Below are positions 6,275 to 53,609 of a DNA stretch of 64,000 nucleotides, one piece after another. The DNA is taken from NCBI RefSeq assembly GCF_008831285.2, contig NC_045138.2, positions 17,517,934 through 17,581,933 of the forward strand. Direction: 5' to 3'. This DNA comes from Nymphaea colorata (lineage: Eukaryota > Streptophyta > Magnoliopsida > Nymphaeales > Nymphaeaceae). The notes under the pieces are model-generated. The model did no database searches. It was not told the DNA's origin and saw nothing but the letters and a program-made list of their open reading frames with translations. The position numbers and the translations under genes are program-made. How positions within the stretch are numbered: position 1 is the stretch's first letter; each line of letters begins with the position of its first letter.

Positions 6275-9200
6275 TCATGTCTCAACTTTGACGATCTTCG
6301 GCACTTCGACGGGGAAATTTTCGATCTCGTCCATCCAGGGGTTGGTCTCCTTGGCCGGCTTGATGGTCCGGGTCGCGCGCCAAACCGCACTGTTGCACTT
6401 GAACCCGGACCCGAACGCGATCTGCCACAACCTGTCCCCCCTCTTGACCCTGCCCTTGGCCTCAGTGTAGGCTAACTCATACCACAAAGATGAGCTAGAA
6501 GTGTTGCCAAACCTATAGAGGGTCATCCTAGAGGGCTCCATGTGCCAGTCACTTAGCTCCAGGTTCTTCTCTAGCTCATCCAGCACTGCCCTGCCACCAG
6601 CATGGATGCAGAAGTGCTCAAAGGCCAACTTGAAGTCTGGTATGTAGGGTTTCAATCCCTTGATCTTTAGCAATTTTCTACCAATCAAGGTGGCTAAGAA
6701 CAGGAGCTGCTCTGACATGGGCAGCACCAATGGGCCCAGTGTGGTGATGTTGGTCTTGAGTGCATCCCCAGCCACAGCCATGAGGTCCTTGGACAGGGCC
6801 ACACCAATCTTCCCCTGCTCATCCTCGCGCTGGTACACACAATTGTAGCACTGGTCGTCCGCGCCCTTGTGGGTCCGAACCGTGTGGACGAGCTCGTACT
6901 TGGAGCGGCGGCGGTCGGACCGGCGGTTCGAGAAGAGGATCGCAGCGCCACCCATGCGGAAAAGACAGTTGGACACCAGCATGGACCGCTCGTTGCCGAA
7001 GTACCAGTTGAGGGTGATGTTCTCCATGCTAACCACCATGGCATAGGTGTCCCTGTGGACCTGTGGAAAGTGATTCCAATGTTATTTTCACATTGGAAAG
7101 TTGGAAAATGTTTCCAAGGTTATTTTGATGGAGGAAAACTTTTTCACCAGAGAATTTTTTCCCTTTTTTTCTGAAAGTACAACTTTAAGAAGCTTGATTG
7201 TGATGGCATGAATGAGAAACAAAGTGGCCCTTTGATCTAGAAGGTTTTTGGTTGAAGAAAGTCAAGAGTTTAATGCTTGAGGTACACTTTTTAAGATCAC
7301 TGTCAGATATTTGACTATATTTAACTTGTGATGAGACAAGCTGGCAAAGGACATAAGACAGGCACATTAATTAGCAAAATATGACATCAGGATCCCATTT
7401 CTTAATGTTTTAGATTACAAAAATATTATTTTTTTTTTATATTTGATTAAGATTTTCTATGAAGCTTTTAGCAGAAAATGTGGGTCAGAGACCACCTGTC
7501 TGCACGTGACATCACAAGGACCCTTCTAAACATTCAGAAGAAAATGACTCTAAGACTGCTGAATGCAAGAAACTGAAAATTTCAGGAGCTTCTAGCGAAG
7601 AAATAACATGACAGGTGGGTCCTTGCAAATTATTATTTTTTCAAAGGAATTGCAGATTGAGGCCAACTGTTTTTTGTTTTTATAAGTTTCCACACATTTA
7701 TGAGGACCAAATCTTTATTCATTCATTATCTTTACCTAACTCTTTGGGCTTCTTTTATTATATTGAAGAGTCAATGATGATGGTTGGGAAATGGTAGCCA
7801 ACCATCCTAACTCCCAACTAAGAGCTCACACATTGAAATCAGAGACTCAGGAAAACCACTTTGCATACAGTAGTCATACCAACATCACCAAACTCTGAAA
7901 AACCCCAGAAATCAAGCCTGACCATCGCTGTGCTGCCAAGTGTTCTCTTTTTCTTTTTTTTTCGAGCGGCAAAAAAATATTTAATATTTCTTGAACTTTT
8001 CTTTTATTAAAAAAATACATGAGGTTGGGATACAACCTTCCCCCCCTATTTATGGCGTCCTGCTGGATTGAAGGGATTCTGTGAGGGGAGAGAAAGCGAC
8101 CTCTTATTATAAAGAGTTGTCTTGGATGATCACATGGGGGCCTTGATTGGGGTGTGCAAGCAGCATAAAGAAATTGAGGTGCCATTGTTGTTGTTCAATT
8201 TCAGAATCCTTCAATTCACACCACTTGGCTAATTATTCGCGAAAAATGATGGTAAGATCACGTTAGAAACTTGAGATTTAAAACTAATTTGCTCGAGAGA
8301 CTGGTAAGGAAGGCCTATCGTTGAGCTTCTTCATGAAATAAGAAGTTTTTCTGCACTTGAAAGTTACGAAATTTTCTTGAAATAACTTGTTTTTGGTAGA
8401 AAAAAGAAGGAGATTTCTAAGCACTGCCACCAACTAATTACAGGGGAATTATATTTTTGTTTGTTTTGAATTTATGAAAAAAAGATATGAGGGGCTTTTG
8501 AAAATGATTTCCTTAAATGCAGCAGCTGTGATCATCCGGACGCCTACCGGATTATGACGATTGAGACTCAAGGGAGATTCCAAACGCAAAGTCAAATGAG
8601 CTCCAAAAGAATCATTTTCACATTCATTAAATTGCCTTTGAGAAAGGTAAGGGAGCTCCCGGAATATCCTTCGAACCAGGTGAGATGGCGCCTTCGCTGC
8701 GGGCGAATGGAGCTCAGGGTGCCTGAGTTTTGACTGGTTGATCAAGTTTTAGTTTGACTGAGCCAAGTGCTATTAAAAAATAATAAATACCAACTTAAAT
8801 GTATGTATCTGAGCTTCAATTAAGTTTCAATTTCAATAGCACAAGTAATCTGAATTTGAATCGGAGGTTGGTGGTTGGCTAAGTTAGCCAGGACAACATT
8901 TTAGACCTGAGCTGGTTCAGTTGGGGAGGTCGAAGGTTCGAGCCTACCTTCTATGGCTTTTCTTCAGATTTGAAAAGAAAAAATTAATATGTATTTTTTA
9001 AAAAAAAAAAATATTTTCCGTCAAAATTTTGATTGACGGATTGCCAGCTCTGCTCGAACCTAAGCGCATTGATGGGAGCAAGCATGATCTTGAAGTTGGA
9101 ATGCATTAAACAACAAAGAAAAAAGGAAGAAGAAGAGAGGAGATAATGGGGACGACGGACCTGGAGGAGCTGCTTGGCGAGGTCGACGGAGATGAGGCCG

Positions 9201-9873
9201 GCGCTGCAGCCCATGCCACCGAGGTTGTAGGAGCGGATGTTGCTGCGGAGCTTGTAGTGGTTGACAAGCATGGCGGAGAGGGAGGGGGTGGGGTTGAAGA
9301 GGCTGCAGTTGACGATGACGATGCCGATGTCCTTGGGGTTGACGCCGGTCTTCGCCAGGAGCTGGTCGACGGCGCCGAACATGACGGCCTCCGCCTCCTT
9401 GCGGGCCTCCGCCATGCAGGGGTTGGGCGGCACTCGGAGGACGGCGGGGGGGAAGTAGGTGTCCTGCCCGAGCCCCGACCGCTCGAGGATCTTGCGTTGG
9501 AACTCGAGGTTCTGCTCGGTGAAGGTGCCGGCGAGGGCGGAGCGGGTCATGAAGATCTCGCGCGTGCACTTCCGCTCGGACTCGGGCTTGTAGCAGGCGA
9601 AGTCGAGGAGGTAGACGGGGCGGGGGCGAGAGGAGAGGTGGAGGGCGCAGAGGAAGACGAGGAGGGAGGCGAGGGCCACGGAGGAGAGGAGGTTGTAGCG
9701 GAGGAGGGACCAGAGGGCGGTGACGTCGGTGGGGAGATGCGGGTGGAGAGGAAGGCGAGCATGGGGACGGCGAGGAGGTAGGGGAGGTTGGAGATGAGGT
9801 AGTGGTAGCCGAGCTTCACGTACTTGAGGCGGACGGAGTGGCGGTAGTCCGGGCTGGCTGCTCCGGCGTCCAT
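6275..9873 (-). CDS. 3-ketoacyl-CoA synthase (KCS11-like), two exons, with a 1-nt frameshift in exon 1
   Basis: KCS condenses malonyl-CoA with acyl-CoA at the ER, the first and chain-length-setting step of very-long-chain fatty acid elongation for waxes, suberin and sphingolipids. Exon 1 spans 9873..9161 and exon 2 spans 7060..6275, with a 2,100-bp GT-AG intron at phase 0. The N-terminus begins [20 protein letters not shown] and has two membrane segments. The active-site Cys is in GGMGCSAGL, the catalytic His in [10 protein letters not shown] and the Asn in [16 protein letters not shown]. If one missing base is allowed in the G run at 9731-9734, the protein is 499 residues and these fall at 223, 391 and 424, exactly the family numbering. 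As read, the frame breaks around residue 47 just before [15 protein letters not shown], so the gene is either a sequencing/assembly error or a very recent pseudogene. The exons are strongly GC-rich. Confidence 0.9.
8870..8980 (+). repeat. tRNA-like SINE remnant inside the KCS intron (candidate)
   Basis: Contains TGGTTCAGTTGGGGAGGTC and GAAGGTTCGAGCCTACC, which resemble polymerase III A-box and B-box arms, then an A-rich tail around 8970-9010. It lies in the 2.1-kb KCS intron. A SINE origin is inferred. Confidence 0.4.
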
Positions 9874-9993
9874 GGCGTCGACGAAAGACAGAGGTAGAGA
9901 TCTAGAGAGAGGAAGCAGAGTTGGGGATGGGGAGGAGAAGGAAGAGGGATGGGGGTTTTAAGGAGGGAGGAGGAGGTGGAGCAACGCAGAGTG

Positions 9994-11445: not shown

Positions 11446-12595
11446 TGCTTGGCTCGATGTTTAGTAAACAAGCTTTTCTTTTGGTGTTTGTGGTCAAGCT
11501 TTCGTCCACATGTAATTTATTGTACTTCATATTGTTAACGCCTTTTTTTGGCGTTTGGAGTTTCCCTTGCTCTGCCTTTGCATAGGATTCCTTATGGTTT
11601 TTTTTTTCCTCGGTTGAATATAATATAAATATCAATTCAGAAAAATACATTCAACTTTTCATGTTTAGACGCTTGATTTAAAGTATTGATTTCTTAAGAT
11701 TCGCATTAAATTCCAAACAGCTCAAACTCGATCATATTTTTGTTAATTTCACTAAAAGTTAAAGCTAAGACATCTTCCAAATAAGATAATCAATAAAGTA
11801 TGTGGTCAATGCAACCGTAGGCAGCTCCAACGGAGATATTACTTAATATTATTAATATTGTTTGTCGAACTTGAATGCAAAACATTGTTTAAAAAGCACT
11901 TAATAATATGCTTTCTAAAATGCGATCACCCATGGTCGGGCTTCGATTCAATATGATCTTGAAAATGAAGCACCAAGTTCAAAATATTACTTGCATTTTT
12001 GAGCTAATGATGAGAATAATATGAAACACCAAAAAAATGTATATAAGATTCTTCTTAATTTACAGTCACATAACTTAGCAATTAAACATTCAAAAGTAAG
12101 TTTGATGCCTTATCATTAATTAAATTTGGGGAATCTTGGAAGACTTGATTTTTAATCCCTCCCAAGCTGTTGTCCCAACTGGAATGATGAATTTGCTATT
12201 TAAACTGATTCAACTTGATGTCACAAGTCAGCTTAAGAAATTGTATCTGTAGGCGATTAGTTTACTCTTGGAGACTGTCAGGTAATGATGTACAAGTAGT
12301 CGAGCCAACTTAGGTTCGACTTGAACTCGTTTGTCAGAACTCGACTCGTTTATAAACCAGTGGAATTGAGGTGAGTTGTTAATCACAAGTTTGATGACGA
12401 TGAAGGAAAGATAGAGGAAAATCTGTCAACAAATATGCATCAAAGGGGAGGGGAGGTATTTTTGAAAATTTTCATAAAATAATGGACATTTTAGACTTTT
12501 TTACCTTCTTCCTTTACCCTTTTAAGAAGTTTCTTTCTATATTTTAATAGGGCCATTGGGTCATTGCACACTCATTGTCAGATATGTTTCATGCA
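11446..12595. other. AT-rich intergenic DNA, no gene seen
   Basis: No open frame of any recognisable family. A short GTCGAGCCAACTTAGGTTCG / AACTCGACTCG patch near 12300-12350 looks like another trace of the hAT-like subterminal repeats. Confidence 0.4.
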
Positions 12596-12596
12596 A

Positions 12597-13080
12597 TTAG
12601 GGGTGAACAATGAGCTCGACTCGTTAAAGCTCGACTCATGAAAGAGTTCGAGCCGAGTCGTTTGTTTAACGAGTCGAGCTCGAGTTCATGAGTAGACTTG
12701 TTCAAATAATCGAGTTGAGTTCGAACTCAACACGTGATTGCCGAGCCGAGCTCGAGCCTTAATTAAGTCGATATATTCAAACGAGTTTACAAGTTTGTCG
12801 AGCCTTATTCGAGTCAAGCTCGAGCTCAACACATAACGACGAATATCAATTCTATTCAAACGAGTTTGTTGAGTCTTAATCGAGTTAACAATGAATATTA
12901 ATTTTATTCAACCGAGTTTATCGAACCTTAATCGAGTCAAGCTCGAGCCGAGTCGACCTGCTTCCATCAAGCCGGGTCAGGCTCATGCTGCTTCCGTCGA
13001 GCTATTTTCGAGCTCGAGGTTTCATTAACCAAGCCAGCTGACTGAACTAGGGTTCGATTGGACTCATGTTCACTCGTTAC
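12597..13080 (+). mobile_element. Non-autonomous hAT-like element with GAGCTCGACTCG subterminal repeats
   Basis: It begins TTAGGGGTGAACAATGAGCT, a hAT-type terminus, and for about 450 bp carries repeated direct and inverted GAGCTCGA / CGAGTCGAGCTCGAG words. The end near 13065-13080 (CATGTTCACTCG) is a weak reverse match to the start. The element at 2545-2960 is its inverted relative: the 14-bp terminus and the GTCGACCTGCTTCC word are both shared. There is no transposase. Confidence 0.6.
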
Positions 13081-13339
13081 ATGCAACATATTACGCTATT
13101 ACAAATAACCGGAAATTGATTTTAGATGCGCTTTTGATTAGTTAGCAATCTCTAAGAAAAAGGGTCTGCCATAGTCATTGAAACACAACCAATTAGATTC
13201 CCTGCACTGTCCCCATTATATGCATGACATATCACATCATACTTGAGGGCATGTTGCTAGTGATTTCTCCTTGCATTCATTTTAGTCAGGCGTATTTCTG
13301 CAACTTCAGGCCGAGTCTGACACACAACCTATTCCCACA

Positions 13340-13980
13340 CTTCCACCGTAAAAATGCAGTTGAATGTCGGTGCTACCTCCATGTACCATACATAATTAAT
13401 TTATCTTCTAATTTCAAATATTTTTAAAATTTTAAAAACATTTATATGCTTTTCATTTTCATAAGTTTAATTATTTGGAATCGGTTCATTTGATTCGATT
13501 TTTTATTTTCTATTGACTATATTGACAAGAGTCTAATGCATATTTAATCAGATCTGATTGAGAAATGGTTCTGATTCACCTATTCTGAATCATCTAACTT
13601 TCCAATCCCATCCAAAGTCATGACATTGGTAAAAAAAAAGTGAACAGTTGTATTCATTGAGTATTTATAGTAGAAATTAGATAAAGAAAAAAAATACGAT
13701 TATATATGGAGAAAAACAATAAGGAAGATTGGAAAATTTTGCCGTCACCAATGTAAAAGCAAGTGGGCGGCACTTTTCATGGAATGTTTACCATAGTAAT
13801 TAATTAATTGAAAAAAAGTAAAATTATATATGGAGAAAAATGAAAATGAAGATTGGAGAATCCTCTTCTTCCTTATTTACATACAACTGTTTCAGGTAAC
13901 TGGTGCATCTCTCAGCCATGGGCAATCTATCTAATTCCTATATATTATTGTTGATCTGGTTTCTGCTATTCAAGGGGTTG
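13340..13980 (+). repeat. Third copy of a repeat shared with 18290-18700 and 26510-26980
   Basis: Shared words in the same order include ATTGACAAGAGTC, AAAGTGAACAGTTGTATTCAT, ATATATGGAGAAAAACAATA, AGCAAGTGGGCGGCAC, CATGGAATG and TATATTATTGTTGATC. The three copies are clearly homologous but diverged, with small indels. No coding potential is evident. The other two copies are part of a larger duplicated block. Confidence 0.7.
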
Positions 13981-14888
13981 AGATTGTAAAATGGACCTGA
14001 ATAGGTGGATTTGAATCAAATTGTTCCCTTCCCGATTAGATTCAGGAGATGATTCTTTTTCACTAAAACTTGGCAAGGGTCGATCAGTTTCTATTTCGAA
14101 TTCTCGTAATATCAATTTATTATAAGAAAAGGATACAAATATGCAACTTGAAAACTTGAAACATAGAAGGTATATATATAATATCAATTTATTATAAGAA
14201 AATGATACAAATATGCAACTTGAAACATAGAAGGTATATATATATATATCACGGTTGTACCCTATTGTATGTTCCCCTCCATTGCAGAAAGCTAGCCCTC
14301 CTTGCTAAATTTAGGTCATAAATAGTAAAATGCTTACATAGTTTTGAAGGATGCAATATGTTATTTTTAGTACTTCACAAAAGAAAAAAAAACATTTGAG
14401 GAGTCCACATGGTTCTACTTTAGTGCCTTTTCAAAGGCTAGTGTGGGCAACAGCCTACATCAGCGCACAGTTGCCCACATTTGTCTCCGCTACTGCTATA
14501 ATTATATTATAACACTAATATTTGATAAAATATCATGTATTTTTTGGTGAATTTTGAAATTAAAGTGATCTTAACCATTCCCATACAGTTTTCCATTGAA
14601 ACCATTCACATACACTAATATGGATGTGTAACCTCCACCCGATCAATTGTAGAGCACTCTGATAAAGAAATCCTTCGGCCTTTCATAGCACACTACCAAT
14701 GCATTCTGATGCTATGTTTGTTTCGTAGGGCACTAATGCATTGGGTGGTTGTGATTGGAGGAAACTTTAAATGACTGGATGCCTTCAACTTTTATTTAAT
14801 ACATACACATGTGCTTGTATTCGGTAGTTGTGTTCATTTCGAAGTTCTATTAATTTATGTCCTTCGACATATTCCTTTCGGACCCGCT

Positions 14889-15648
14889 CTCCTAGTTTTC
14901 TTTCGAGATGGCACGATGAAAGCAATGGGTGTTTGCGTGGCTAGTGATGCATTAGCAATGGGGCGAGTGGGTTAAATAGGTGTTGGGGGCCAACCGATAG
15001 CCAACACGAGGGAAGAAAGGAACCGGTAGGAGAGGCTTGAGCCCCCCCTAATCGTCTACATGAGTGGACACTCGTTTTTGCGTGAGAATCAAGAGAAAGG
15101 AGGTGGTGGAGGCACATGTACATGTTTTTTTTTTTCACTCTCTTTTTTGTCTTTGTGAAATTTTTTGTTTATTTGACTGAGCCAGGCTGGGTAGCATTTT
15201 TGTGGAAAGATATTCTTTTTTTAATCTGTCTTAAATTTTATGTATTTATATATTTGTTTATATAAAAAAAACATTTCTTTTTATGCTTTCTTTTTGAAAA
15301 AATAAATAAATACATGCATACATAGGGATTCTGGTAAGAAGATCTCCCCACTAAAATGCTACCCAGCCTGGTTCAGTCAAATAAAACAAAAACTTTTACA
15401 AAGAAAAAAAAGAGTAAAAAAAAAAAAAGGAAACATCTCCTTTAGCTTCCTCTTGGTGCTCAGATAGACGGCTAACTCAGGCTCGAGTGCTGGCCCTTTC
15501 TACTGGTTCCCTTCCTTCCTCCCCCTAGCTGTCGGTTGGAACCCCGAACTTACTTAGCCCACTCCCCCTTTGCTAATGCATCACCAGTCATGCAAACACC
15601 CATCCCTTCCAAGGTGCCGTCTCCAAAGAAAACCAGACGAACTAGGGG
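14889..15648. repeat. Foldback element: two arms of about 300 bp around a 145-bp loop
   Basis: Left arm 14889-15204 and right arm 15349-15648 are inverted copies. Paired landmarks are TTTGACTGAGCCAGGCTGGG (left) with CCCAGCCTGGTTCAGTCAAA (right), GTGATGCATTAGCAATGGGG with CCTTTGCTAATGCATCACC, and GGTGTTTGCGTGGC with GTCATGCAAACACC. The loop (15205-15348) is AT-rich and recurs near 24105-24240. The arms have accumulated indels, so this is not recent. A short open frame on the minus strand in the left arm has no recognisable domain. Confidence 0.8.
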
Positions 15649-15984
15649 ATTGAGACTAAGATATCACAAGTGAAAACATCATCTAAAGATAATGATATTT
15701 TTATTTCTACTTTGACGGCAAGGAATATGAATTCAATAACCAATATATAGATTCAAATTTCGGTTCACATGGACATTCCTAGATGTTAATGCAAAAAAAA
15801 AAAACAACGGCGAAAGATGGACATGTTTTGGGTGAGTGAGAGGTATTAATCCTACCACCCGAAAAAATCCCAAAGGCCCCCCCATTCCCCCTTGCCTCTA
15901 GGGTCTTGAGCTACATCGGTGTCAGCAATAGCAACGGTGCACCCTTCAACTTGATTTTGCGTTCTACCACCTTAAGATACAAGA

Positions 15985-16080
15985 ACATAGCGCCCACAAT
16001 AATCGAACTAGAGACCTGCCTTTATATAGGCCCCTAGCCCGACCAGCTACGTTATACTCCTTGTGATGAGAGATGAGCAT
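15985..16080 (-). repeat. tRNA-like SINE remnant (candidate)
   Basis: On the minus strand it reads GTAGCTGGTCGGGCTAGGGG, then CAGGTCTCTAGTTCGATTAT, resembling tRNA D-arm and T-arm boxes. No closed cloverleaf is present. It lies in the duplicated block. Confidence 0.35.
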
Positions 16081-17270
16081 GTTGATTGCCTGCAAATCAT
16101 ATACCAATTTGTAAAAGCAAAATAGAAATAATAGATGAGAACCGAACGAGAATCTAACTTTTGTCTTCTTATATATGTGATGCATGGCATGATGACCTCT
16201 TCTTGTTGTTTCGTACTTTTCTCTTGTCCTCTTTTCTTTTAGTCAAGCAAAAATGAAGAGGATTGCTGAGGTTAGATAGGCCCTATTCTGCAGCAGCATG
16301 AGTTTTGAACTCTTGACCTCCCTTGAAGTTGAACTAACTAGGTGAATGGTGCTCTTATTTGGTTCTTGATCCAAACGTTAAATCCAATAGATATTGCACA
16401 AATGGGTCCAGATCAGGTTAGCCAGGTACCAAAGTGAAGGAAATGAACTTCACAAAAAATATATATCTTGGTTCTCCGTTCAAACATGATCCATTTTTTG
16501 AGTTTTTGCTATGTGATATGGCATAATTCTTCATTTTCAATCGATTTTGCAGTTTTTTCTCAAATTTTTTAAGCTTTTGGGTTGCACTGTTTGGAAAACT
16601 TGGTTTAATGTAACAAATCATAGTTTTTGAGACCTGGTTGAAATGTTTAGAGAGAAAGAAAAACCAAAGCTTTTGTTTTTTTTAGGGTTAGGGGGCATAA
16701 GTTATTCACACCCATTTAAATATATATATTTTATACTTAATTATTATGGTCAAGACTACAGAAACACTGTACGACCCACTTGCTTTCAGATCTACGAGAG
16801 GGGAGATTTTCTAGTCTTCCTTATAGTTTTTCTCTGTACATAAATTTATTTTTTTCTTAATTTAATTTCTATTATAAATACTCCATAAAGAGTATTGGTC
16901 ACTGGTTTTGACGTACATTAATGGAGAAAGAGTATTGGTCACTGGTTTTGACTTACATTGATGGAGAAAGGATTTTTCAATCTTATTGGTCGTTTTTTTC
17001 CTATATATAATTTCACTTTTTATTTTAATTAATTTTCATGATGAAGACTGCCCACTTGTTTCCACATGATTGGGAATAAAAAGTGAGGTAGGCTCTTCCG
17101 GTGAATTAACCAAAAATAAAAAAATTGATCAATTTAATTTAATTTTGTCATGCTTACCCCATGTGCCACACATCATTTATTTTTAAAAATTTTTAGCTTT
17201 TAATAAGCTTTTATATGTTTTTTCTTTTTCTTAAATTTCATTTTTTTTTGAATCGGTCCATTTGATGGTA

Positions 17271-17461
17271 GTGGTTGGGAGGCAAGGCAAGGCAAGGAGG
17301 GCCTCGATGCATCGGCGCTCGAAGGTCTGGCCGGAGGGAACGATGACGGGGTCTGCCATGGGAGCGTTGGAGATGGGGCGGAGGAACTCGAGCGGTGGCG
17401 CTTTCTGGTGTTGCTGACGGAAGTGGAAGGATATCGTCCACCGGTTTTTGCCGCTGCCCAT
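17271..17461 (-). pseudogene. Truncated plant U-box (PUB) gene fragment, left arm
   Basis: From an ATG at 17461 it reads MGSGKNRWTISFHF, then PPLEFLRPISNAPMADPVIV and PSGQTFERRCIEA. This is the N-terminus and first half of a U-box as in plant PUB38-41-type E3 ubiquitin ligases, where the U-box recruits E2 enzymes. The fragment stops at the outer end of the inverted repeat, after CIEA, before the second half of the U-box; no ARM repeats follow. The key Cys of the FLCPI motif is Arg here (FLRPI), unlike the right-arm copy. Confidence 0.8.
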
Positions 17462-18081
17462 TTCCTTCCTCCTCTCCCTCGCTGTGGACAAGAGCTCCAG
17501 CGATCGATAGAACCAGAACGGGCCTGTGGTCTCTCTCTCGTTCTTAGGTGGGAGGAAACATCAGGAGAAATCTTCGACCAGAGAAGAAGCGGCTACAGAG
17601 AGATAGCGAGAGAGAAACAGAGAGGAGGGGGCCACTTTCCAAACGCCAATCACTACACATGAATGTGTTTCAATTCCATCAACTGTTTCTGAAGATATTT
17701 CGGGATTGCTATTCCTTCCTTCCTCTTCCTTCCTCTCACCGCAGAAATCAAAACAATTTTGGGAGTTGGCAGAAAACCTGAGCTCTATCGAGTTGATGGA
17801 ATTGAAAGGGGAAGGAAGGAAGGAATGGCAATCCCGAAATATCCTCAGAAACAGTTTATGGAATTGAAACACATTCATGTGTAGTGATTGGCGTTTGGAA
17901 AGTCGCCCCCTCCTCTCTGTTTCTTTCTCGCTATCTCTCTGTAGCCGCTTCTTCTCTGGTCGAAGATTTCTCCTGATGTTTCCTCCCACCTAAGAACGAG
18001 AGAGAGAGAGAGACCACAGACCCGTTCTGGTTCTATCGATCGCTGGAGCTCTTGTCCACAGCGAGGGAGAGGAGAAAGGAA

Positions 18082-18275
18082 ATGGGCAGCGGCAAAAACC
18101 GGTGGAGGATATCCTTCCACTTCCGTCAGCAACGCCAGAAAGCGCCACCGCTCGAGTTCCTCTGCCCCATCTCCAACGCTCCCATGGCTGACCCCGTCAT
18201 CGTTCCCTCCGGCCAGACCTTCGAGCGCCGATGCATCGAGGCCCTCCTTGGCCCTTGCCTTGCCTCCCAACCACC
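18082..18275 (+). pseudogene. Truncated plant U-box (PUB) gene fragment, right arm
   Basis: From an ATG at 18082 it reads MGSGKNRWRISFHF, then PPLEFLCPISNAPMADPVIV and PSGQTFERRCIEA, keeping the canonical FLCPI motif. Homology ends at the same codon as in the left arm, at the edge of the inverted repeat; the frame then runs into unrelated AT-rich DNA and stops at 18322-18324. It cannot encode a complete U-box. The intact donor gene is not in the window. Confidence 0.8.
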
Positions 18276-19764
18276 ACCTCCTTATATGTTTTTTATATGT
18301 ATTCAATTTCACAAACGATTCTGAACCGATTCACTGATTCATAAAATCATTTAGCTTTCAGATTCAAGATTTGATAACATAAGTAAAAAACAAGTGAACT
18401 GTTGTCTTCATCAAGTGTTTATAATAAAAATTAAACAAAGAAAAAGAATACAATCATATATAGAGAAAAATGGTAAGGAAGATTGTAAAATTTTGCCCTC
18501 ATCAATGTAAAGGCAAGTGGGGCGGCACTTATAATGGAATGTTGACCATAATAATTAAATAATTGAAAAAAAATAAAATTATATAGGGAGGGAAAAGATA
18601 AGGAAGATTGGAGAATCATGTCCTTCCTTATCAGCCTAAAGATTATTTCAGGTAATTTGTTAATTTCTCACTTAAGAAATCAATGTAATTCTTATATATT
18701 GTTCTCGAGGGAGGGGGCTAGTAAGTGGTAAGTTTTGGTTTCAAACTTTTGTAGCATCAATTTTTTGTACTACAAAAATCACTAGGTACCTATGCAAGTT
18801 GAAGTATAGTGGTGGTGTTGTCCTACACACCAAAACTAGGCCATTCTGAACTCTAAGAAGATTAGAGAAGAGAGAAGGTTTGGGCTTCAGTAACATAACA
18901 TAACATAGCTTTTTTAAACAATTTTAAGTGAAAAATGTTGTAATGAGCTTTTTTTAGTGGGTTGAAAGTTGTTTCTCAAATATGTTTTTGATTTGCTCTT
19001 TCGTTTTTAGTTTATCATTATTTTTTATTATCTTTTTCATAAAGTATTTATTCTTTCATGTCTTCTATTTTTTATTTTTAATGCCCCAAATGCAAGAACC
19101 CAAGATATCAAACAAAAGCCCCTAAAATAAATAAAAAAAACTTTACCAGAAAGCAAGCAACCCAAAGTCCCTAAAATTACCAGAAATCTCCAAATTGAAA
19201 CCCTTGAGCTCCTGTAAACTCGAAATTTCAGTCAATCACCAAGTCATCTCTGAGAATTGACCAGAACGGGAGATGAAACAAGAAAGGAGGAATCCCCTAG
19301 AGAGAGAGAGAGAGAGAAGTGGTTATTAGCCTCTTATGACAGGGACAAGAAATGTGGATCTTTTCAAGGGTTTCCTGCAAATGGTTTCTGGAAATTACAC
19401 CATCATAAACGATTTAGAGTCACAAGAAGAATAATAATCTGCTAAATTCTGTCATCCAGTTAGATTCTTAACCATGCTCATAAAGTTAGTTCAGAAGCAA
19501 CATCAATTTTGAAAGGTTTTCTACTTTCAACTCTTCCAGTATTTCATCGCGGATCGATGATATTGAGAAAGGAAGAAAATGAAAAGAAAAGGTCACTGAA
19601 AAAATCTGAACCAATCAACAAAAACCAAGTTTTCCAAAATCAGATCATTTTGGGTCATTGTTTGCATTCCAGAAGAGTAGTGCTCATGAGAATCAAATCG
19701 ATGAGTGATTGTTTACATGCCAGCAAGCTCGACAAGGTTGGTCGGTGCAGATGAGATTTCAATT

Positions 19765-20745
19765 AGGTTTTCAGAAAAGAAGAAAAACATTTCCTGCATA
19801 CTTACCTTCTCTTGGGATTAGTACATAACGACAGAATGTTCCTTAGACGTCATATAAACACAGGAGCACCTCTGAAAGTTGGGTCTAAATGCAGGCTTTG
19901 CCATCATATCAACCTTGCATGCCTCGGTCTGTTTTGAAATCAGTTTGGTCTTCCTTGAGTGGCAGCTCTGATTTCAGCACTTTGCTTTTAGCAACTCTTG
20001 AAACGCAAACTTTTCCCAGGAAAATTGGTGAATTGATTTCCCACATCATGATCAATATTTTGATTCTTTTCCTAGCAGTAGATTCAGAAACTAAGATGCC
20101 AGATTTCCGCGGTAGATTCATCTGGACAATGGCATAAGCTATTCACACTAGCATGATCAATGTCATTTTGGGGTTGCAGTTGTCATGCTTAATGATTTTG
20201 CGAGTTTTCAATTGTATGCACCTAGATTCTGACTTAGTAGTGGCCGAGCCAGAAATTTTTGACTAAGAACAGAAATTTTCATTCCTTAAGGGGAACCGGT
20301 GCATACAAATTAGCGAATATCTAAAATGCAAACAAAAATTGTAGGACTGGTGTGGGCAACATGCAATTCAGCGAATTGATTTTCCTAGGAAAAGTTTGCG
20401 TTTCAAGAGTTGCTAAAAGCAAAGTGCTGAAAATCAGAGCTGCTACTCAAGGAAGACCAAACTGATTTCAAGACAGACCAAGAAGGCCATGGGGCAGGTG
20501 CAGAATTGTTTCTCTTTCTAGTGACCTTGCATGATGACGGCAAAGCCTGAATTCAGCAACATTTGGACCCAACTTTTAGAGGTGGTCCTGTGTTTGTATG
20601 ACCTTTAAGGAACGTTTTTGTTATTATCTACTAATTCTTAAGGAGAAACTGCCATATTTGGTTTGCAATTGCATGAGGTGCAGGACTTTCTCAGGAGAAG
20701 GTAAATAAGCAGGAAACGTTTTTCTTGTTTGTAGGAAACCCAACT
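19765..20745. repeat. Foldback with diverged arms, same family as 20998-22670
   Basis: Left arm about 19765-20035, right arm about 20362-20745, loop about 330 bp. Paired landmarks: TTTGCTTTTAGCAACTCTTG (left) with CAAGAGTTGCTAAAAGCAAA (right), TGAAATCAGTTTGGTCTTCC with GGAAGACCAAACTGATTTCA, and AAAAACATTTCCTGCATACT with a matching word near 20700-20725. The right arm keeps about 70 bp lost from the left. The loop holds a piece of the dispersed GTGTGGGCAA repeat. Confidence 0.8.
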
Positions 20746-20997
20746 GTCATCGGCTTGATTCTCGTAGGCACTACGACTCTAAACTGCAAATGAAAGGCTC
20801 TCTCTCTCTCTCCCTCTCACCAAGTGATAGGTAGCGCAACTGGTGGGGTTGGGTGCGTGTTATAGCTATGTTCTCATTTTGTTTCTTTGAGGGTGCTATC
20901 GTGATGGTATTGAGGAGTAATGTTGATCTTGAAATTAGATGTGACATATTAAGACCAAGTGCACCCGTTCTTGTCCTTCCCTCTCTCTCTCTCTCTC

Positions 20998-22670
20998 TGG
21001 AAAAAACAGCACACGATATTGGGGTTTGCTTTTAGTAAATGTTTGTTACTTGTTGGCCCTCGGCCGGTGCAGGTTTTGGAAAGTGGGCTCGGGGATTGGA
21101 ATGAGGGTGTGAATTGATTGGAGGATAAGCAACAAGCGGTTCTGCCTTTCTTTGTAAGGTAAGGTAAGGGCTAAGGAGGAAGAGCCACTATGAATATGCT
21201 CCTTCTTCCTTCCCCTTTAGGGCCATTTCAAATTCACTTCCTCTTTCCTTGCATTCAATGGCAACTGTTGACCAGTTGCCCCCTTCTCTACTCTAGTTTA
21301 TTTTGTCTCTCTTTGTTTGTTTGCTTTTTGCATTTTATTTTTAGCTCATTTGTCATAATCTTTGTTATTGAATTTTTCATTTTATCGATTATATATGCAT
21401 TTAATCGATAAAGCCCTTGCGGCCCCTTGGCTCCACTCCTGAGATATGGGGCTGTGACTATAGCACCCTTTAGTCAAAAAAATCTTGGCTCGGCCGCTGC
21501 TTGCGGTGTCTGGCTTAACACCTTGAGGGTGTTTGTTAAAAAGAATATTACGCTTTTAGAACATATGTTCCTATAACATGTGTATGGAGAATACAATGTA
21601 AAATCTATACTTCTTTGCGATCACAGTATGTTTCTTGGATAAAAAAACCTAATGTCCTTAAATCACGTATTTTATAAGAACATATGTTTCAGTAACATTA
21701 TATTGTTCTTGGGAACGCCCTGTAAGGAACACTTGCCATACCGCTACCTTCCAAACAAGGAACTGAAATATTAATATTTCCCCACTCAATTTAAATGGGA
21801 AAACATTTTAGGGAAGAAACTCAGATCAAAATCTCTCACACTTTTTGAGAAACATTTCACATCTCAACGCCTCTTGAGGTTAAATACACTCAAAAGTTCA
21901 ATGCCTAGTGAGTTTCTTAACCCCTTTTTAAAGTTGGGCCTAAATGTTGCTGAATGCAGGCTTTGCCGTCATCATGTTGCGTCAGTAAAGAGAATCTCTT
22001 CTGCATCTGCCCCATTGCCTTGGTTTGTCTTGAAATCAGTTTGGCTCTGCCTTGAGCGGCAGATCAAAACAACTCTCACATTAAGTTCCTTGAGTGGCAG
22101 CTCCTTTCTTGTTTCAGCTCCAAAACAACTTAATGTGAGAGTTACTAAAAGCAGAGTGGTGGAATAAGAGCTGCCACTCAAGGCAGAGCCAAACTGATTT
22201 CAAGACAAACCAAGGCAATGGGGCAGATGCAGAAGAGATTCTCTTTACTGACGCAACATGATGACGGCAAAGCCTGCATTCAGCAACATTTAGGCCCAAC
22301 TTTAAAAAGGGGTTAAGAAACTCACTAGGCATTGAACTTTTGAGTGTATTTAACCTCAAGAGGCGTTGAGATGTGAAATGTTTCTCAAAAAGTGTGAGAG
22401 ATTTTGATCTGAGTTTCTTCCCTAAAATGTTTTCCCATTTAAAGGGGAAGGAAGAGGGAGCATATTCATAGTGGCTCCTCTTCCTTAGTCCTTACTTTAC
22501 CTTACCAAGAAAGGCAGAACCAACTTGATCCTTATCCCCCAGTCAACCCCATTGTTGACGCCACATCCACATCCCGATTATCATATCCATAACGAGCCCA
22601 CTTTCCAAAACCTGCGCAACAAGTAACAAGCATTTGCTAAAACCGAACCCCAAAATGGTGTGCTCTTTTT
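20998..22670. repeat. Large palindromic element with near-identical inner arms and nested hairpin
   Basis: Inner arms about 21792-22060 and 22172-22446 are almost identical inverted copies: both strands encode the same 61-residue read from MRLNTLKSSMPSEF onward, although this is not a credible protein. The centre holds a further inverted pair, AACTCTCACATTAAGTT (about 22069-22085) and AACTTAATGTGAGAGTT (about 22127-22143). Outer arms continue as 20998-21217 and about 22447-22670 (for example TTTCTTTGTAAGGTAAGGTA against TACTTTACCTTACCAAGAAA). The left arm is split by the insertion at 21218-21791. Words such as CTTGAAATCAGTTTGGCTCT and CCTTGAGTGGCAGCTC are shared with the foldback at 19765-20745. 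Confidence 0.85.
21218..21791. mobile_element. Insertion of about 575 bp splitting the left arm of the palindrome
   Basis: The right arm reads straight from CTTCCTTCCCCTTT to AAATGGGAAAAC (as reverse complement), but in the left arm these are separated by 21218-21791. The insert includes CCCCTTGGCTCCACTCCTGA and AATCTTGGCTCGGCCGCTGC, matching the dispersed repeat family, and has no coding capacity. Flanking TTT could be a target duplication but is too simple to rely on. Confidence 0.6.
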
Positions 22671-24099
22671 CTTCATGGCCAAAACCCATTCCAATGCCAA
22701 TCACGCCCCTCAATTAAGAAAATGCTTTTTCTACGTCGTCACCGGATAACGTCAAACAAATGCATCATCTTATGAAGTTACAAACTCTATTCTAAGTCAC
22801 CAAACTCTTTTATTTTACTGCCACACCCGAGTCGCATCGAGTCGGGTGTGCACTGAACATGGGTGCGGCTCGGACTCACACTCGAGCTCAATTAGAATGT
22901 CATATTACTAAATTACTTATATAATATATGTTGTTCTAATATTTTTCTATGAAATACAATTATTCAAATATGTTATATATATTAATAACTAAATTGTAAT
23001 AATAACATATACATGCTTATTCTTTTATATATATAATAAATTAATAATAATAATAAAATATTCTAGCCGCACCGCCATACTTAAATTTTTTTGGATGTGC
23101 CGCTTCGGCGCCCGCACCTGGCACTCTGGTGACATAAACTCTATTACTTTATAAGGCATGGAAATCAGAAAGGTTAATACCCTTTAAAACAATGTAGTCT
23201 CAATTACTCAATCTTCACAAACGAGTTAGAGAAGGCAATGTGGATTAACCAATTTTGACTTCAGCGCTACAAATCGAGGCAGAGTTTGGGTTTTCATTCA
23301 AGGAAAATCCCACTACCAAGCTTGGAGACAACTCTTTCTTGAACCCATTGCCATCCCCAGACCAGTCCCTTTCAAACACGAGACCCTTTACCCCGACTTT
23401 TGATACTCCATAAACCAAAGAATTTATCACCTAACCTGCCATTGAAGAGACGTAAGTTAAAACCCTTTGAATCCACTTAAGATGGAGCCCTAAGAGGACG
23501 TTTGATGGTGACAGGACATGCGGAACGGAACACGTGTGTCCTGTTTAGTCGATTTTTTTTATCAAACACTGTCCGCAGTAGTACAGGATGAACACGACAT
23601 ACAGTTGGACAGAGAGATATAAGTTATCTTGTGTTATATATTGTTGTGAACTAACCCTCATATCAGCATGTAACAAAACACTCTAACTGCCCTCTCACTT
23701 TCGTTTAACTTTTAAAAGTAACATGCCATTCTAGTGGCGCTGAAACCACAACTTGTTAGCGGTCTGAATGGGACTCACCCAAGCCCAAGTCCCTCTGCCA
23801 CATGCAAGGACCCAAAGCAAGGTTTATAATTTATTAGTGGAAACCAACAACAGGCACTAGCTATAAAATTTACAATTCTTAAAGGGCTCTCAGTATATAA
23901 ATGAAGAAAGCTTTCTTTAAATATTAAATATAAAAAATAAGACTTTTTACAAGCATGTGTGGGCAAGTGACCACCTTGTGTATGAATCAACAAAAGGACG
24001 ACCGAAGTTTTACAAATTGCCCACCAACTTTTCTTTTATAAAATGAAGCAAAAAATGAAGTACTTGCGTGGCATTTTGATACCCGAGAAAACTCGAGAG
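22671..24099. other. Intergenic DNA with small repeat traces
   Basis: No gene was recognised. An AT-rich tract covers about 22905-23060. A patch at about 23490-23620 has inverted TGTCCTG/CAGGACA-type words similar to 25600-25690 and 39380-39420, suggesting a small MITE family. A GTGTGGGCAAGTGACC word at 23958 is another trace of the dispersed repeat. Confidence 0.4.
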
Positions 24100-27000
24100 T
24101 AAGCCTCCTTTTGTTTTTTCTCTTTTTTCCTATACATGGAAATCTTCCTTCCGATGCTTTCTTTTACATAAATAAATAACTAAAATTTGAAACGGGGAAT
24201 ACTGATAAGAACATCTCTGCCCATGAAAATGCCACCACACATAGATATCTGAAAAAAAGCTTATAGGGTCGCAGAAGAATGTACTTCTCTTGCTAATTCA
24301 AGCAAAAACAATAGCGAAAGATGGGCATGTTAATTTCCTACAGATCAGAATCACAGATAATAGATGAGAACTGAATGAGAATGTAATTTTTTCGGACAAG
24401 AGATTGGTTTTCTTCACATATATGTGAGTAGGAGGACTCTTCTTGTGAAGCGTTGTTTCATTCTTTCTCTTGTCCTCCCTTCCTCCAAGTCAAGTGAAAA
24501 GGAAAGAATTGGTGAGCTTTGACAGTCCCGCTTCTGCCAGTATTTGAACTCTTGACCTCCCTTATCGAACAAAAAAAATAATTTTCCAATAGAAATACAG
24601 ATATTGTGTAAATGGGTCCAGAGCAGGTTAGAAATGTAATTCAAAAAGCATATATATCTGCTCTGGTTCAAACTAGTTACAAAGATTCATTTTATATTTT
24701 TTTGCTCCTGAAAATGGACATCTTTCTAGAAAATCAAGCAGTCCAACGTTGGACTCAGACACGACTTTTCTGCATTTGTATTCAATTCGAGTTTGGACAT
24801 ACAAATATATGGAAAAACAAAGAATATATCTAATACGAATATGATCTATTGACATCCCATGAGTGCTAAAAAAAAGTTGCGATTTTGGAAAACTGTGTTT
24901 TTCAAGTAGTAGTACAACGTGATCAGTGTTGAAAGCGAGCAATATTGGCGGATTCTCTTATGCTAGGGAAAATAGAATGGCATTGTTTTCTATTATTTTC
25001 AATCCAATAGAGCTAATTATTTTAAATGTATAATCTAAATTAAACAATTTTCCGAATTTATTATTAAAAACTGACAGAAAGATGTCAAAAAACTAAAATT
25101 CGTATAATTTTTTAAGCAGCAATTAACATGCCTGGGCATTACCTCACTAGCTGCATATCATGGTGTCACACTAAAATGCAGTACCATAGTGATATCACAT
25201 AGTTCTTTGATTTCACTAGATTTTGCACCTTGCTTTTCAATTCTTCTAAGCTTTTAGGTTGTACTGTTTGGAAAACCAGGTTTAATGTCAGAAATCTAGC
25301 TTTTTAACAACTATCACTTAAATAAGCCTTAAATGTCATTATTTAGATGATGAAATTTTTGGCTTCTAAAAAGTTATTTCCTGATCACAGCTTATCCATT
25401 GCTCGTGATAATCACAAACTTATACCCATCAACGGCGATCAGCAACATACATGATACATAATTGCATGCTTAATTGCCATAATCGTCATCACCATGAGAT
25501 GGGCAGAGGTTCTCCGGAAACACACCATAATCCGACCCAGTTATGGAACCAGACATTTTTGGTTAAGAAACACTAATAGCTTTAAATAATTAAATCCCTG
25601 AGAGGTCATTTGATTGTTGTCCATTAAGACAGGACGTCATGTCCATTACACTACTGTCCTGTCTTCATTAAGACGCAATCCATCCCTACAGTTCTATTTC
25701 GTAAAAAAGTGCAAAAAATCTATTTGAAAGTCAGGGCTACCCTTGTGTGCCATGTCATCATCTATTTTTTCATTTTCTAAATGTTTTTATATTTTAACGT
25801 TTAATAAAATTTTGTATGTTTTTCATTTTGTTAAAATTTTATTCAAATTCTGATTTTTTTATTAGTTATATGGACAAGAGCCTACCTCACTTCATATACC
25901 CAATCATGTGAAAACAAATGGGCAATACGCTTCATGGAGTCTTCATCTTAGAAATTAATAACGAAAGAAAACATAAAATTATATATGGAGAAAAACGATG
26001 AAGACGATTGAATCAAAATCCCATCACCAATGTAGTAACCACTGTTTTTAAAATCGGTGAGAATCCGCCTGAATCGGCCAATTCGAATCAATTCGGTTTT
26101 TTACCCATTCGCTTCAAGGCCGATTCAACGCCCACAAAAAAAATTGGCGATTTTCGTAAGAATCGGCTGAAAATCGAGCGATTCTTCGAACCTTCCGATT
26201 CCGCAACCTTCTTTTAAAGGTCATCTGCTACAACCCGTTTCGTTTTAGGGTTATCTGATACAACCCACCCTACCTTGTGCATGGACAAAAGGGGGACCAA
26301 AGTTTTACAAATTTCCCTAAACTTTATTTTTGTTATTAAAATGAGCCATATAGTAAGTTTTAATTCATTTCGTTGGACCTTAAATAATAACTGATTCTTA
26401 TTGCTAGTTAAAAAAAAATGTTGCCAGCAGGTGCAGAATCCCCATTAAAAAAGAGTTTATTGTGTTATGTTAATTTTTTAAATTTTTTCTTCTTATTTGT
26501 GACTGATTTTGTAATTGTTTAATTTTTAAATTTAAATTACATTTTAATCAAATCTGATTTACAAACAATTCAGAATCCGATTTGATTCACCGATTTATTA
26601 AGTCATTTAGCATTCTGATTCAAGACTTTGTTAACATTGGTAAAAATATGTGAACGGTAGTCTTCATGGAGCATTTATTAACAGAAATTAAATAAATAAA
26701 AATAATAAAATTATATAAAAAAAAAATGATAAGGAAGATTGGAATATTTTGCACTCGTCAATGTAAAGCAAGTGGGCAGTACGTTTCATGGAATGCTGAC
26801 CATAATGATTAAGTGATTGCTAAAAAAATAAAACTATATGTGAAGAAAAATGATAAGAAAGATTGGAAAATCCTTTCCTTCCTGATTTACCTAGAGATTA
26901 CTTCAGGTAATTGGTACAGTTCTCTCTCTCTTGGAAATCCATCTACTTCCTGTATATTATTGTTCATCTTCAGAGGGTTGCGAGCATTGGTGACAAAGTC

Positions 27001-27370
27001 GACAAGAATCGATCAGAATTCACTTGGGGTGGTTGGAATAGCCTCCTGCTTACCGGAATTCTCTTAAATATGTTCTCAATTTGCTCCTTAGTTTGTAGAT
27101 TTCATAAAGTATTTATTCATTTACGTTTTTCTGTTTTTGGTTTTCAATTTTTCATTTTCATTGCCCCAAAAGCTAGATCCCAAGATATCGAACAAAATGC
27201 CCACAGAAAAACAAACCCTTACCAGAAAGCAAGCAACCGTAAATCGCTAGATTTATCAGAACTCTCCAAAGTTGAAACCCTTGAGCTCCTGTAAACCCTG
27301 AAATTTCAGTCAATCATAGTCCGAACAGAGATCTCTCCTAGAGAGAGAGAGAGAGAGAGAAAGATAGAGA
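24100..27370 (+). repeat. Segmental duplication, copy 2 (partner 15220-19330)
   Basis: Collinear with 15220-19330 in at least six blocks and same orientation. It lacks the U-box foldback and instead has its own insertions, for example 24690-24860, a reversed copy of the 4595-type element ending at ATTGACATCCCA. It ends with the GA microsatellite at 27341-27361, matching 19299-19317 in copy 1. No intact gene is present. Confidence 0.7.
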
Positions 27371-29450
27371 AAGCAAAGGGTATTGAGAGAGGGACGAGAA
27401 AAGGGGATCTGTTTATGAAGACAAACGCAAGGAAGAAAGGAAAGACTCTCTCTCTCTCATTTCTTTCTCTACAGGGAAAGTGAGGAAAGAAGGAGGAAAG
27501 GAAGCTTCGAGCGGCGAAGAGGCTGCCCGGCTTTAGCGCATCCAACGACGCCCAAGGAAGCCGTGTGTTGCAGTCGACGAAAAATCTACGTTTCGTTTGC
27601 ACGCGCTAAAGTCGTGCACGAAGTGTCCTTATAGAGGTGGTGAGCAAGAAATATGACGATGAGTTTGGAGGAGGTTGATTTGGTTCCACAAACTCATCTT
27701 AGATATAATAAGAAAAGTGGCATTTCTTTAGTAGTGTTGTTTGCCTCAAAGGTGAAAAGAGTCCGCTCACGTTCTTCTTTCTTGTTCCTATTCTTCTAAA
27801 ATTTGAGAGTTCATTGCTTCTAAATTCTTCAAGAGAAGTATATTTCCCCAACGCACCATTGGTTCTCTTGTAGTTTCAAAAGAGGGTGAATTATAAAATA
27901 CTGAAAAATATGTTTTCACATTATACTTTGGAGAATATGGTGTAGACGTAATTCCACAATCCATAATGAAGAAACCATGTCTCCACAACAAGACTCTCAA
28001 GCCATCTGGCGGGTTTGTGTCCATGGCTTCTATGCTACCTTAAGAGACTCCGTTGATGATAGGAAAAACCTTCAGGTTTGGCTGGCTACAGGATCCTTCC
28101 TGACAAGTCTCCCCCATTATTAACAGGTCAAGCTTGTCTTCAAGTTGCCTTCGTAACTTCTAGTGGTAGAAAGTTGGTCGCCTTTCTGTTTACAGACACG
28201 AAAGGTCTACGTCTTGACCAAGGAGTACAGTAGTGGGAGGATATCAATGACCTACCTGAAGACACCATTCTCCGACAGCGCTTGATGGGTGGTGGCTTGG
28301 ACAGGTTTCAGAAGATTTTGCTGATTTCTAACAATATGGCAAAGCATCTACGGCAACATCTTTCACAGGGTGCAAATTCTGCAAAACAACAACCTGCATA
28401 TGATATTTTGTCTCTTGTAACCCAAGCTATGTAAATCTGGTTCTTTCAACTTTTGGTTTCAACTTGGTTTGTTTTTTTCCTGGCTCGCTCTAGCTCTTAA
28501 GTTAGAGTGACTGCCTATTTTTACTATATATATTTTTGCTATTGAAATAAAAGGTTAAGGGGCCTTTCTCCCGCAGGGTTGTTGCGGAAGTGTCCTTATA
28601 AAAAGAGAAAGTAGAGAGAGAGCCTTTTCTTCTCCTTATTCCTATCCCCTTGCTTGTCTTAATAAACAAATTCCCTTTCTTTATATATATATATATATAC
28701 CCTTCATGTTTCATCTCCTTTCAGATGAATTCGTTCAGATGAATTCGTGGAGATGATTGATTGACTGAGTAGGGTTTCAATATTTTTTGGAGATTTTTGG
28801 TCACTTTAGCCATTTTTGGTTGCTTTCTTCCTTATTAGGGTTTTCCTTTTCGGAGATTTTGATTGATTTATCGGGTTTTGTTTTTGTTTTTTTGTGCATT
28901 GGCGTCTAAAACTTTAAAAATTACATTTTCTGAATTCAGGAACCTCGCCATATTTCAGCTTGTATATCAGTGTCTTATTTTTGCAGCAAGATGATTGATG
29001 CCATAGGAATTTGAGATCCGACCACCTATTATGCCGGCCCCGATTTTTGCCCAACCCTTTTGGCTTGTACTATTTCTATAGGTAATTTTTTTTTGTTATA
29101 AACTAATTAAAAGGAAAAATAAAGCTTTTTTTACAAAATGAACATACAAAGAATTTTAATTTACTCTAGCAGGCCTCATATAATAACTGGATTTAAATGC
29201 AAGTTCAAAAAATGTCTCTAGGAGGCGCAGAATCCCCATTAAAAAATATTTGTTATGTTGTGTTACTTTTAAATTTTTTGCCCTTTTTCTGACTGATATT
29301 TTAATTTTTTAATATTTACCTAATTGGTACAACTCAAACCTATTGAAAAGAACAGTTCATTAGTGAAAGTAATGTTCGGGAATTGAGTATGCAGTTTGAT
29401 CTCAATTTAGTATAACACATAGTGGGGTGCTTATCATCAACTATTCTTTT
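27371..29450. other. Intergenic DNA with a decayed coding-like patch
   Basis: Mostly AT-rich. The stretch 27985-28434 looks like decayed coding sequence (see 28233-28434). An AT microsatellite lies at 28682-28700. The 27430-27600 stretch is more GC-rich, but its open frame on the minus strand has no recognisable domain. Confidence 0.4.
28233..28434 (+). pseudogene. Unrecognised coding-like fragment
   Basis: An open frame without a start codon reads WEDINDLPEDTILRQRLMGG, then DRFQKILLISNNMAKHLRQH and ends YDILSLVTQAM-stop. Amino-acid composition looks protein-like, and a second frame just upstream (27981-28125, MSPQQDSQAIWRVCVHGFYA onward) also looks coding but is interrupted. I do not recognise the family. 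It may be the decayed 3' end of a gene. Confidence 0.3.
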
Positions 29451-29634
29451 TCAATTGGTTTTTTTTTACACCAATTTAGAACTCAGGCAAGTTTCCATCG
29501 AGAAAGTGTTGATATGGTCAGCATTTCTTCTTTGTTCTTGTTCTTCTTTTGGAGATTTCCGTTTTAGATCTTTGCAGAGGCTTTTCTAACCATTGAAGCT
29601 ATTGAAGACAAGTTGTTTTTTTCTTTGTTGTGCC

Positions 29635-29812
29635 GAAAAATGTTTCAAATAATTATAGCTTATGCAAGCACCATATGTTAATGTCTTTTATTTCTATACA
29701 AAAAAAAGTATCAAACATAAGCTATAGTTGTTTGATATTTTTTTTATAGAAATAAAAGATATTAACGTATGTATGGTATTTGCATAAGCCATAATTATTT
29801 GAAACATTTTTC
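29635..29812. repeat. Hairpin-forming inverted repeat, about 80-bp arms
   Basis: AAAAATGTTTCAAATAATTA (29636-29655) pairs with TAATTATTTGAAACATTTTT near 29791-29810, and CTTTTATTTCTATACAAAAA pairs with TTTTTATAGAAATAAAAGAT. The loop is about 10 bp. The size and AT content suit a MITE; a small-RNA precursor is possible but unsupported. Confidence 0.75.
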
Positions 29813-30061
29813 TTTGATGCATTCGTTCTTTATTATTTTGCTATGCATTGCAAGATGGTCGCTACTTAAACCATTTTTATCAGAAGTCGTGCTCATCTTT
29901 TGCATGTATTTGAGTAATTTTGCGTATCTTTCTTCTCAGTAGTGCAACTAGCGTGTCAACCATGTCACTGGCACTGGCTTCTTTGGGTTCTACGAGTTGC
30001 TTTAGTTGTGCGACACAAGAAAAAGAAAAAAACAACTTGTCTTTGATAGCCTCAATGCAGT

Positions 30062-30228
30062 GGAGGAGCAAGAAATTTTTAGCTATGGGCACTGATATAA
30101 AAATTCTTATTTTTCAAGGGACACAACATATGTAACTAAGTAAATATTTGTAAGGAATTTATGTAAAAACATATAAGAATAAATAAAAATTTTGTTGCTG
30201 GCGTGGGCAACTGCCCACGCCAGCCTAT
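30062..30228. repeat. Dispersed repeat copy with perfect 12-bp palindrome
   Basis: Starts TGGAGGAGCAAGAAATTTTT and ends with CTGGCGTGGGCA-AC-TGCCCACGCCAG (30197-30222), a perfect 12-bp inverted repeat with 2-bp spacer. This is the best-preserved copy of the GTGGGCAANTGCCCAC family in the window. Confidence 0.6.
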
Positions 30229-30482
30229 ATGTAGTTAGGTTACTGTTTCAATGGTTGAAAAAGCCTCTGCAAAGATCTAAAATGAGAATCTCCCAAAGAA
30301 AAAAAAAAACAAAGAAGAAATGTTGATCATATCAACACTTTCTTGATCTAAACGTGCCTGAGTTCTAAAATGGTGTCAAAAAAAAAATCTGAATGCAGTT
30401 TTGCCTTTTCTTTTTTATATGGAACAATATTCAGACACGCAGTCATATTGGCCGTTTTGTCCGTTCAAACCTTTTGTTTCTT

Positions 30483-53555: not shown

Positions 53556-53609
53556 GAAAAATAAGAGGGGAGGTGGTGACACGGAAGACAAGAAGCAATG
53601 CTCTAGCTA

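Follow-up and report, generated by a model that had tools for sequence, protein, structure and literature searches.

Inverted repeats have a documented place in plant RNA silencing. In Arabidopsis, transcribed inverted repeats are reported to be processed by DCL2, DCL3 and/or DCL4, with DCL1 helping, and one such locus, IR71, forms about 3 kb of double-stranded RNA for which siRNAs have been shown (PMC12825306). In soybean, an inverted repeat built from a fragment of an aquaporin gene (NIP6-1, Gm14) measures 621 bp, and 40 of its siRNAs also match a gene without a mismatch (PMC3534067). In petunia, naturally occurring RNA silencing of chalcone synthase gives siRNAs of 21 and 22 nt; the abstract of that study does not name an inverted repeat as the trigger (PMC3608071). 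Inverted duplication of genes also underlies a model for the birth of MIRNA genes (Allen et al., as described in PMC3237417). Gene-fragment inverted repeats that yield siRNAs are therefore already known in plants, and the locus described here would be a further instance of such a repeat rather than the founder of a class.

The locus in question is a foldback made from two copies of the 5' end of a U-box gene, and lies in a 64-kb stretch of Nymphaea colorata DNA that was analysed as a whole (hereafter, the window). Like IR71, it could form a long, near-perfect intramolecular duplex of the type that serves as a substrate for DCL2, DCL3 and DCL4; unlike IR71, it is only half a kilobase in size (PMC12825306). 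With the soybean NIP6-1 repeat it shares an inverted gene fragment and a similar arm size, but the soybean arms are about 1,000 nt apart and similar to exons 2-4, whereas here a 64-nt spacer separates arms that hold a leader and first codons (PMC3534067). Both IR71 and the soybean repeat yield siRNAs, whereas the U-box foldback is known from its sequence. It also resembles the starting structure of the MIRNA-birth model, in which gene segments lie in divergent orientation, but the outcome of that model is a miRNA with its target, and the foldback would represent its earliest stage at most (PMC3237417). A literature search returned no title dealing with a U-box inverted repeat specifically. Taken as a whole, the locus reads to us as the 5' end of a U-box gene that was recently duplicated in inverted form and inserted bluntly as a palindrome, with the potential to give siRNAs if it is transcribed. 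We put the chances of this reading at about even, and note that the readings weighed below are not mutually exclusive.

Structure and gene content of the foldback

The sequence-only reading of this DNA had proposed a near-perfect foldback at 17271-18275, with very similar arms of about 465 bp on either side of some 70 bp. A gapped arm-to-arm alignment bears out the foldback and moves its limits outward by a few bases (Table 1); the arms measure some 470 bp, and the distance between them, short as proposed, comes to 64 nt. Over 480 alignment columns there are 455 matches, 13 substitutions and 12 gap positions in four gaps, which makes 455 of 468 aligned bases identical (97.2%, gap positions excluded). 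An ungapped scan of the window sees the same structure as pairs of 252 nt (97%) and 202 nt (96%) with an outer pair of 26 nt (96%), and the gapped alignment joins these three into two continuous arms. By eye, a 16-nt word, GTTGATGGAATTGAAA, is present three times: within the left arm, within the right arm with a single change, and as an extra copy at 17792-17807, where the spacer meets the right arm. The arms are also set apart by their composition, with 55% G+C against 27-33% in the flanks. The arm differences comprise nine transitions and four transversions, and the observed/expected ratio of CpG has the same value, 0.75, in the two arms, as against 0.45 and 0.33 for the flanks, 0.62 for the window overall, and 1.03, 1.06 and 0.55 for three gene stretches taken for comparison; neither the split of substitutions nor these ratios decides anything with regard to a methylation signature.

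Table 1. Coordinates of the U-box foldback, its reading frames and the repeats that surround it (positions within the window).
Feature	Position	Strand	Size	Remarks
Older outer inverted repeat, left arm	16705-16909	none		Pairs with 18387-18594 at 72% identity
Left flank, part of old repeat	17172-17266	+		Matches 13403-13494 (76%); 17191-17242 matches 25792-25843 (79%)
Left-arm open frame	17231-17461	-	76 codons	Runs into flank; partial U-box, PF04564 profile 2-45 of 73
Foldback, whole	17267-18278		1,012 bp	Limits from gapped arm-to-arm alignment
Left arm	17267-17738	- (gene sense)		Leader and first 65 U-box codons; ATG begins at 17461
Spacer (loop)	17739-17802	none	64 nt	Limits from arm alignment
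Right arm	17803-18278	+ (gene sense)		Leader and first 65 U-box codons; ATG at 18082
Right-arm open frame	18082-18324	+	80 codons	Runs into flank; partial U-box, PF04564 profile 2-35 of 73
Right flank, other part of same old repeat	18306-18703	+		Matches 26557-26961 (78%); from 18328 matches 13573-13949 (79%)
Older outer inverted repeat, right arm	18387-18594	none		Pairs with 16705-16909

Each arm consists of a leader of about 280 bp and a U-box coding start of 65 codons, and the two gene starts face the centre. The head-to-head arrangement of two U-box gene starts with their leader had been recognized from the letters, and Pfam now supports it, with PF04564 found in the correct frame of both arms (36.4 bits in the right arm and 32.5 bits in the left; cut-off 21.4). 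The right arm additionally matches U-box chains in the PDB (best E 9e-8; six distinct sequences at E ≤0.01). Its plus-strand ATG frame begins MGSGKNRWRISFHFRQQRQKAPPLEFLCPISNAPMADPVIVPSGQTFERRC, an N-terminus that we take to be reminiscent of the Arabidopsis PUB38-40 group. At the CPI motif the right arm encodes Cys and the left arm Arg at the same place; since the two PDB U-box chains compared have Cys there, the left arm is probably the changed one. A functional U-box E3 ligase gene requires a complete U-box, and neither arm has one, both being partial in the Pfam profile. No copy of the parent U-box gene was found in the window, where the only matches are to the foldback itself.

Two details of the earlier description need amending. 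The copies were thought to be cut at the same codon; the outer base at which they end is indeed shared, but close to it a gap of 2 nt shifts the frames of the last codons relative to each other. The statement that neither copy can make protein was too strong, as both arms retain an open ATG frame (Table 1), though one that covers only part of a U-box.

Hairpin potential and direction of transcription

The anatomy of a hairpin-RNA candidate is real. The block folds into one long stem at -978.0 and -979.5 kcal/mol on its two strands, against a mean of -362 kcal/mol (SD 9.5) when the plus strand is shuffled 20 times with its dinucleotides preserved. These energies, together with a BLAST E of 0.0 for the inverted repeat, exclude a chance origin of the match. 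Nine identical arm-to-arm runs of at least 21 nt, which total 365 nt, would pair perfectly, and 195 of the 459 21-nt words in the right-hand stretch 17800-18278 recur unchanged in the left-hand stretch. A long, near-perfect inverted repeat able to fold as a single RNA, as a hairpin siRNA locus should be, is thus present. The proposal of a candidate hairpin-RNA locus accordingly holds for the anatomy and its perfect runs, while its extension to a MIRNA gene is not supported at present.

The orientation of the captured fragments has a consequence that the sequence-only reading did not draw. With both gene starts pointing to the centre, any promoter captured in the arms would send transcripts outward that are not complementary to each other; judging from the layout, such a promoter would be expected to yield two same-sense copies and not a duplex. 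A hairpin therefore requires read-through that enters from a flank. RNA polymerase arriving in this way would produce a transcript able to fold into a duplex of some 470 bp, which would be a substrate for DCL2, DCL3 or DCL4 and could be cut into siRNAs of 21-24 nt, directed at the parent's leader and initial codons. Both the reading of the foldback into RNA and a role in silencing are hypothetical.

An inert palindromic duplication of a pseudogene, with the same origin but never transcribed through, producing no siRNAs and without function, is a serious possibility, albeit one that we place short of even. The flanks consist of A+T-rich old repeat sequence, and the captured leaders are no help toward a hairpin given that the gene starts point inward. 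The coding stretch shows no sign of peptide constraint, few as its changes are: four of the five substitutions between the arms fall at codon positions 1 or 2 in the right-arm frame (the last of the four beyond the 2-nt gap), and Arg stands for Cys in the CPI motif. There is no direct evidence against an inert duplication, although similar plant inverted repeats are reported to feed Dicers when they are transcribed.

Probable insertion into an older repeat

The flanks of the foldback are two parts of one old repeat with relatives elsewhere in the window (Table 1). A related repeat at 13403-13949 carries both flank parts in one run and without the foldback. On the left, homology to 13403-13494 stops at 17266, one base before the arm, and when the foldback is removed the joined flanks match the 13.5-kb copy continuously through the junction; some 15-20 bp beyond that point, about 33 positions (three gaps) are present only in that copy. 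On the right the junction is harder to read, as good alignment of the flank begins only at about 18306-18328. The foldback is absent from the copy near 26 kb too, but that copy has unrelated sequence between its parts and aligns less cleanly, which makes it a weaker witness than the copy near 13.5 kb. On a larger scale, several collinear matches of 69-88% link 16128-19238 with 24357-27316, which suggests an old tandem duplication of about 3 kb, with its copies 8 kb apart.

Direct repeats were sought at the arm ends within narrow boundaries (left 17258-17275, right 18270-18290), and there were none, whether exact at 5-8 nt, with at most one mismatch at 9-10 nt or with at most two at 11 nt. A second scan of the arm ends, for 8-9 nt with at most one mismatch within 15 nt, likewise found none. 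The arm ends thus lack the target-site duplication of 8-11 nt that marks a cut-and-paste transposon. When the same scan was applied to eight inverted repeats, it found an exact duplication of 8-9 nt in one (9 nt, at the palindrome 29635-29812), near matches with one mismatch in another (21790-22443) and nothing in the other six, which include the U-box foldback. With one exact duplication and one set of near matches among eight repeats, the scan can find duplications, but a negative is by itself only modest, weak evidence. Taking the junctions together, we read the event as a blunt insertion of a palindrome into the old repeat and not as standard transposition. The related repeat copy without the foldback and the lack of a target-site duplication at the arm ends are both new observations.

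Beyond the palindrome, its gene content, the left junction and the foldback-free repeat copy, all of which are seen directly in the alignments, we infer the steps of fold-back and joining. A broken 5' piece of the parent, a plant U-box gene of the PUB type, would have folded back on itself and been copied into a palindrome, which would leave the arms with a common outer end and a short spacer unpaired between them; the finished block would then have been joined bluntly into a chromosome break within the old, diverged repeat. A fold-back copy inserted as a palindrome would account at once for arms that end at the same outer base, for the shortness of the spacer and for the lack of a duplication, the last of these because joining into the break would be blunt. 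The fold-back model would also lead one to expect, in the parent gene, a short inverted homology at the spacer edge. In large human inverted duplications the spacer has been ascribed to fold-back, but these spacers measure 766-70,466 bp, in duplications that are far larger, against 64 nt here, and this gap in size counts against the analogy (PMC3907307).

The copies of the surrounding repeat are only 72-79% alike, against 97.2% for the arms, and the foldback would therefore be the younger layer unless gene conversion has kept its arms alike. With 13 differences over 468 sites, the arms diverge by about 0.028 substitutions per site. If each site changes at 6.5e-9 to 1.5e-8 substitutions per year, rates which may not be those of the host, this would correspond to an age of about 0.9-2.2 million years, or to a lower limit if the arms have been gene-converted. 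By the same measure, the surrounding repeat layers would be much older.

Pack-MULEs and foldback transposons bring gene fragments and inverted repeats into plant DNA, and the U-box foldback shares both of these features. It is nevertheless unlikely, in our estimation, that such an element captured a U-box fragment and has the foldback as its cargo or its arms. A diverged outer inverted repeat does surround the foldback (Table 1), and the region of 13.6-30.4 kb holds several other inverted repeats, two of them similar to each other, in the manner of mobile elements. The ends of the outer repeat, in a wide scan of 161 x 221 boundary pairs, are accompanied by one exact direct repeat of 8 nt and four of 10 nt with one mismatch, but all are A+T-rich, and the aligned ends have none of them within 15 nt. 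Unlike Pack-MULEs and foldback transposons, the arms have no target-site duplication and the block has no second copy in the window. Moreover, the outer and inner repeats are centred on different points, neither of the other two copies of the flanking repeat contains an inverted pair, and the cargo is absent from both. No transposase was found in nine further nearby frames scanned with Pfam (71 frames of at least 65 codons were listed), which gave two weak matches below the cut-off and none above it. Two further candidates were set aside. The outer inverted repeat is not claimed as the frame of one element, as its layout differs from that of the copies at 13.4-14.0 kb and 25.8-27.0 kb and its ends cannot be defined. 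A 30-nt direct match of 83% between the flanks (17211-17240 and 18282-18311) was rejected as a duplication because it is less alike than the arms, is A+T-rich and has its left copy 26 nt from the arm.

In all, the window contains four palindromic and six spaced inverted repeats, every one of them between 13.6 and 30.4 kb (minimum 150 for palindromic ones; minimum arm of 100 columns, within 3 kb, for spaced ones). Among the palindromes the U-box foldback exceeds the others in length and in arm identity, yet is not the sole one. A second strong foldback at 21790-22443 is about 90% alike over the palindrome and adjoins an older inverted repeat (21002-21219 / 22440-22670; 75-76%). Part of it resembles the inverted repeat 19817-20025 / 20379-20635 (84% over 172 columns), as copies of an element would. 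An older palindrome at 14892-15636 is 70-71% alike. The small palindrome at 29635-29812 has the exact 9-nt direct repeat TTTTCTTTG beside it and may be a small DNA transposon; the repeat is one whose right copy overlaps the arm end. The palindrome sits between the inverted arms 29459-29597 and 30247-30385 (88%). A Pfam scan of two frames within these other repeats, the first belonging to the foldback 21790-22443 and the second lying between the arms 29459-29597 / 30247-30385, gave no match; gene pieces may be present in the remainder. Elsewhere in the window there are two minus-strand frames of a 3-ketoacyl-CoA synthase-like gene (6275-7081 and 8984-9901; PF08392, profile 160-290 and 3-168 of 290), a plus-strand frame for ribosomal protein L27e (35328-35768), a plus-strand fragment of tryptophan synthase alpha (45419-45865; profile 8-59 of 259) and, on the minus strand, a long PPR protein with an E motif (51606-53606).

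Remaining alternatives and significance

Usual MIRNA precursors are far shorter and less perfect than this nearly perfect duplex of some 470 bp. That the locus is a young or evolving MIRNA gene is accordingly very improbable, even though MIRNA genes have been proposed to arise when segments of a target gene are duplicated in inverted orientation, whether convergent or divergent (PMC3237417). A scan of 12000-32000 found no Rfam family at the gathering score, which a new MIRNA need not reach. Palindromes are known as a class of assembly artefact, but a chimeric inverted read is hardly credible here, and an artefact unlikely, because the 13 substitutions and four gaps are spread along the arms; the block has a spacer of its own, and a self-folding read should give identical arms after polishing.

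We return, then, to the young inverted duplication inserted as a palindrome. A stronger form of this reading holds that a silencing locus was born in one step and without a transposon: the 5' end of the gene would have folded back and been joined bluntly, and read-through from the host repeat would at once have given siRNAs against the leader and beginning of the parent E3-ligase gene. This stronger form we regard as doubtful, if conceivable. New silencing loci and MIRNA genes of plants have been proposed to come from gene fragments duplicated in inverted form, but such a locus is, in our judgement, seldom caught in the act of forming. In the present case the sequence allows an argument about which event came first and how the insertion took place, because the arms are still 97% identical, the left junction is readable and a foldback-free copy of the host repeat lies in the same window. 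If expressed, the locus would amount to a natural RNAi construct against a ubiquitin ligase.
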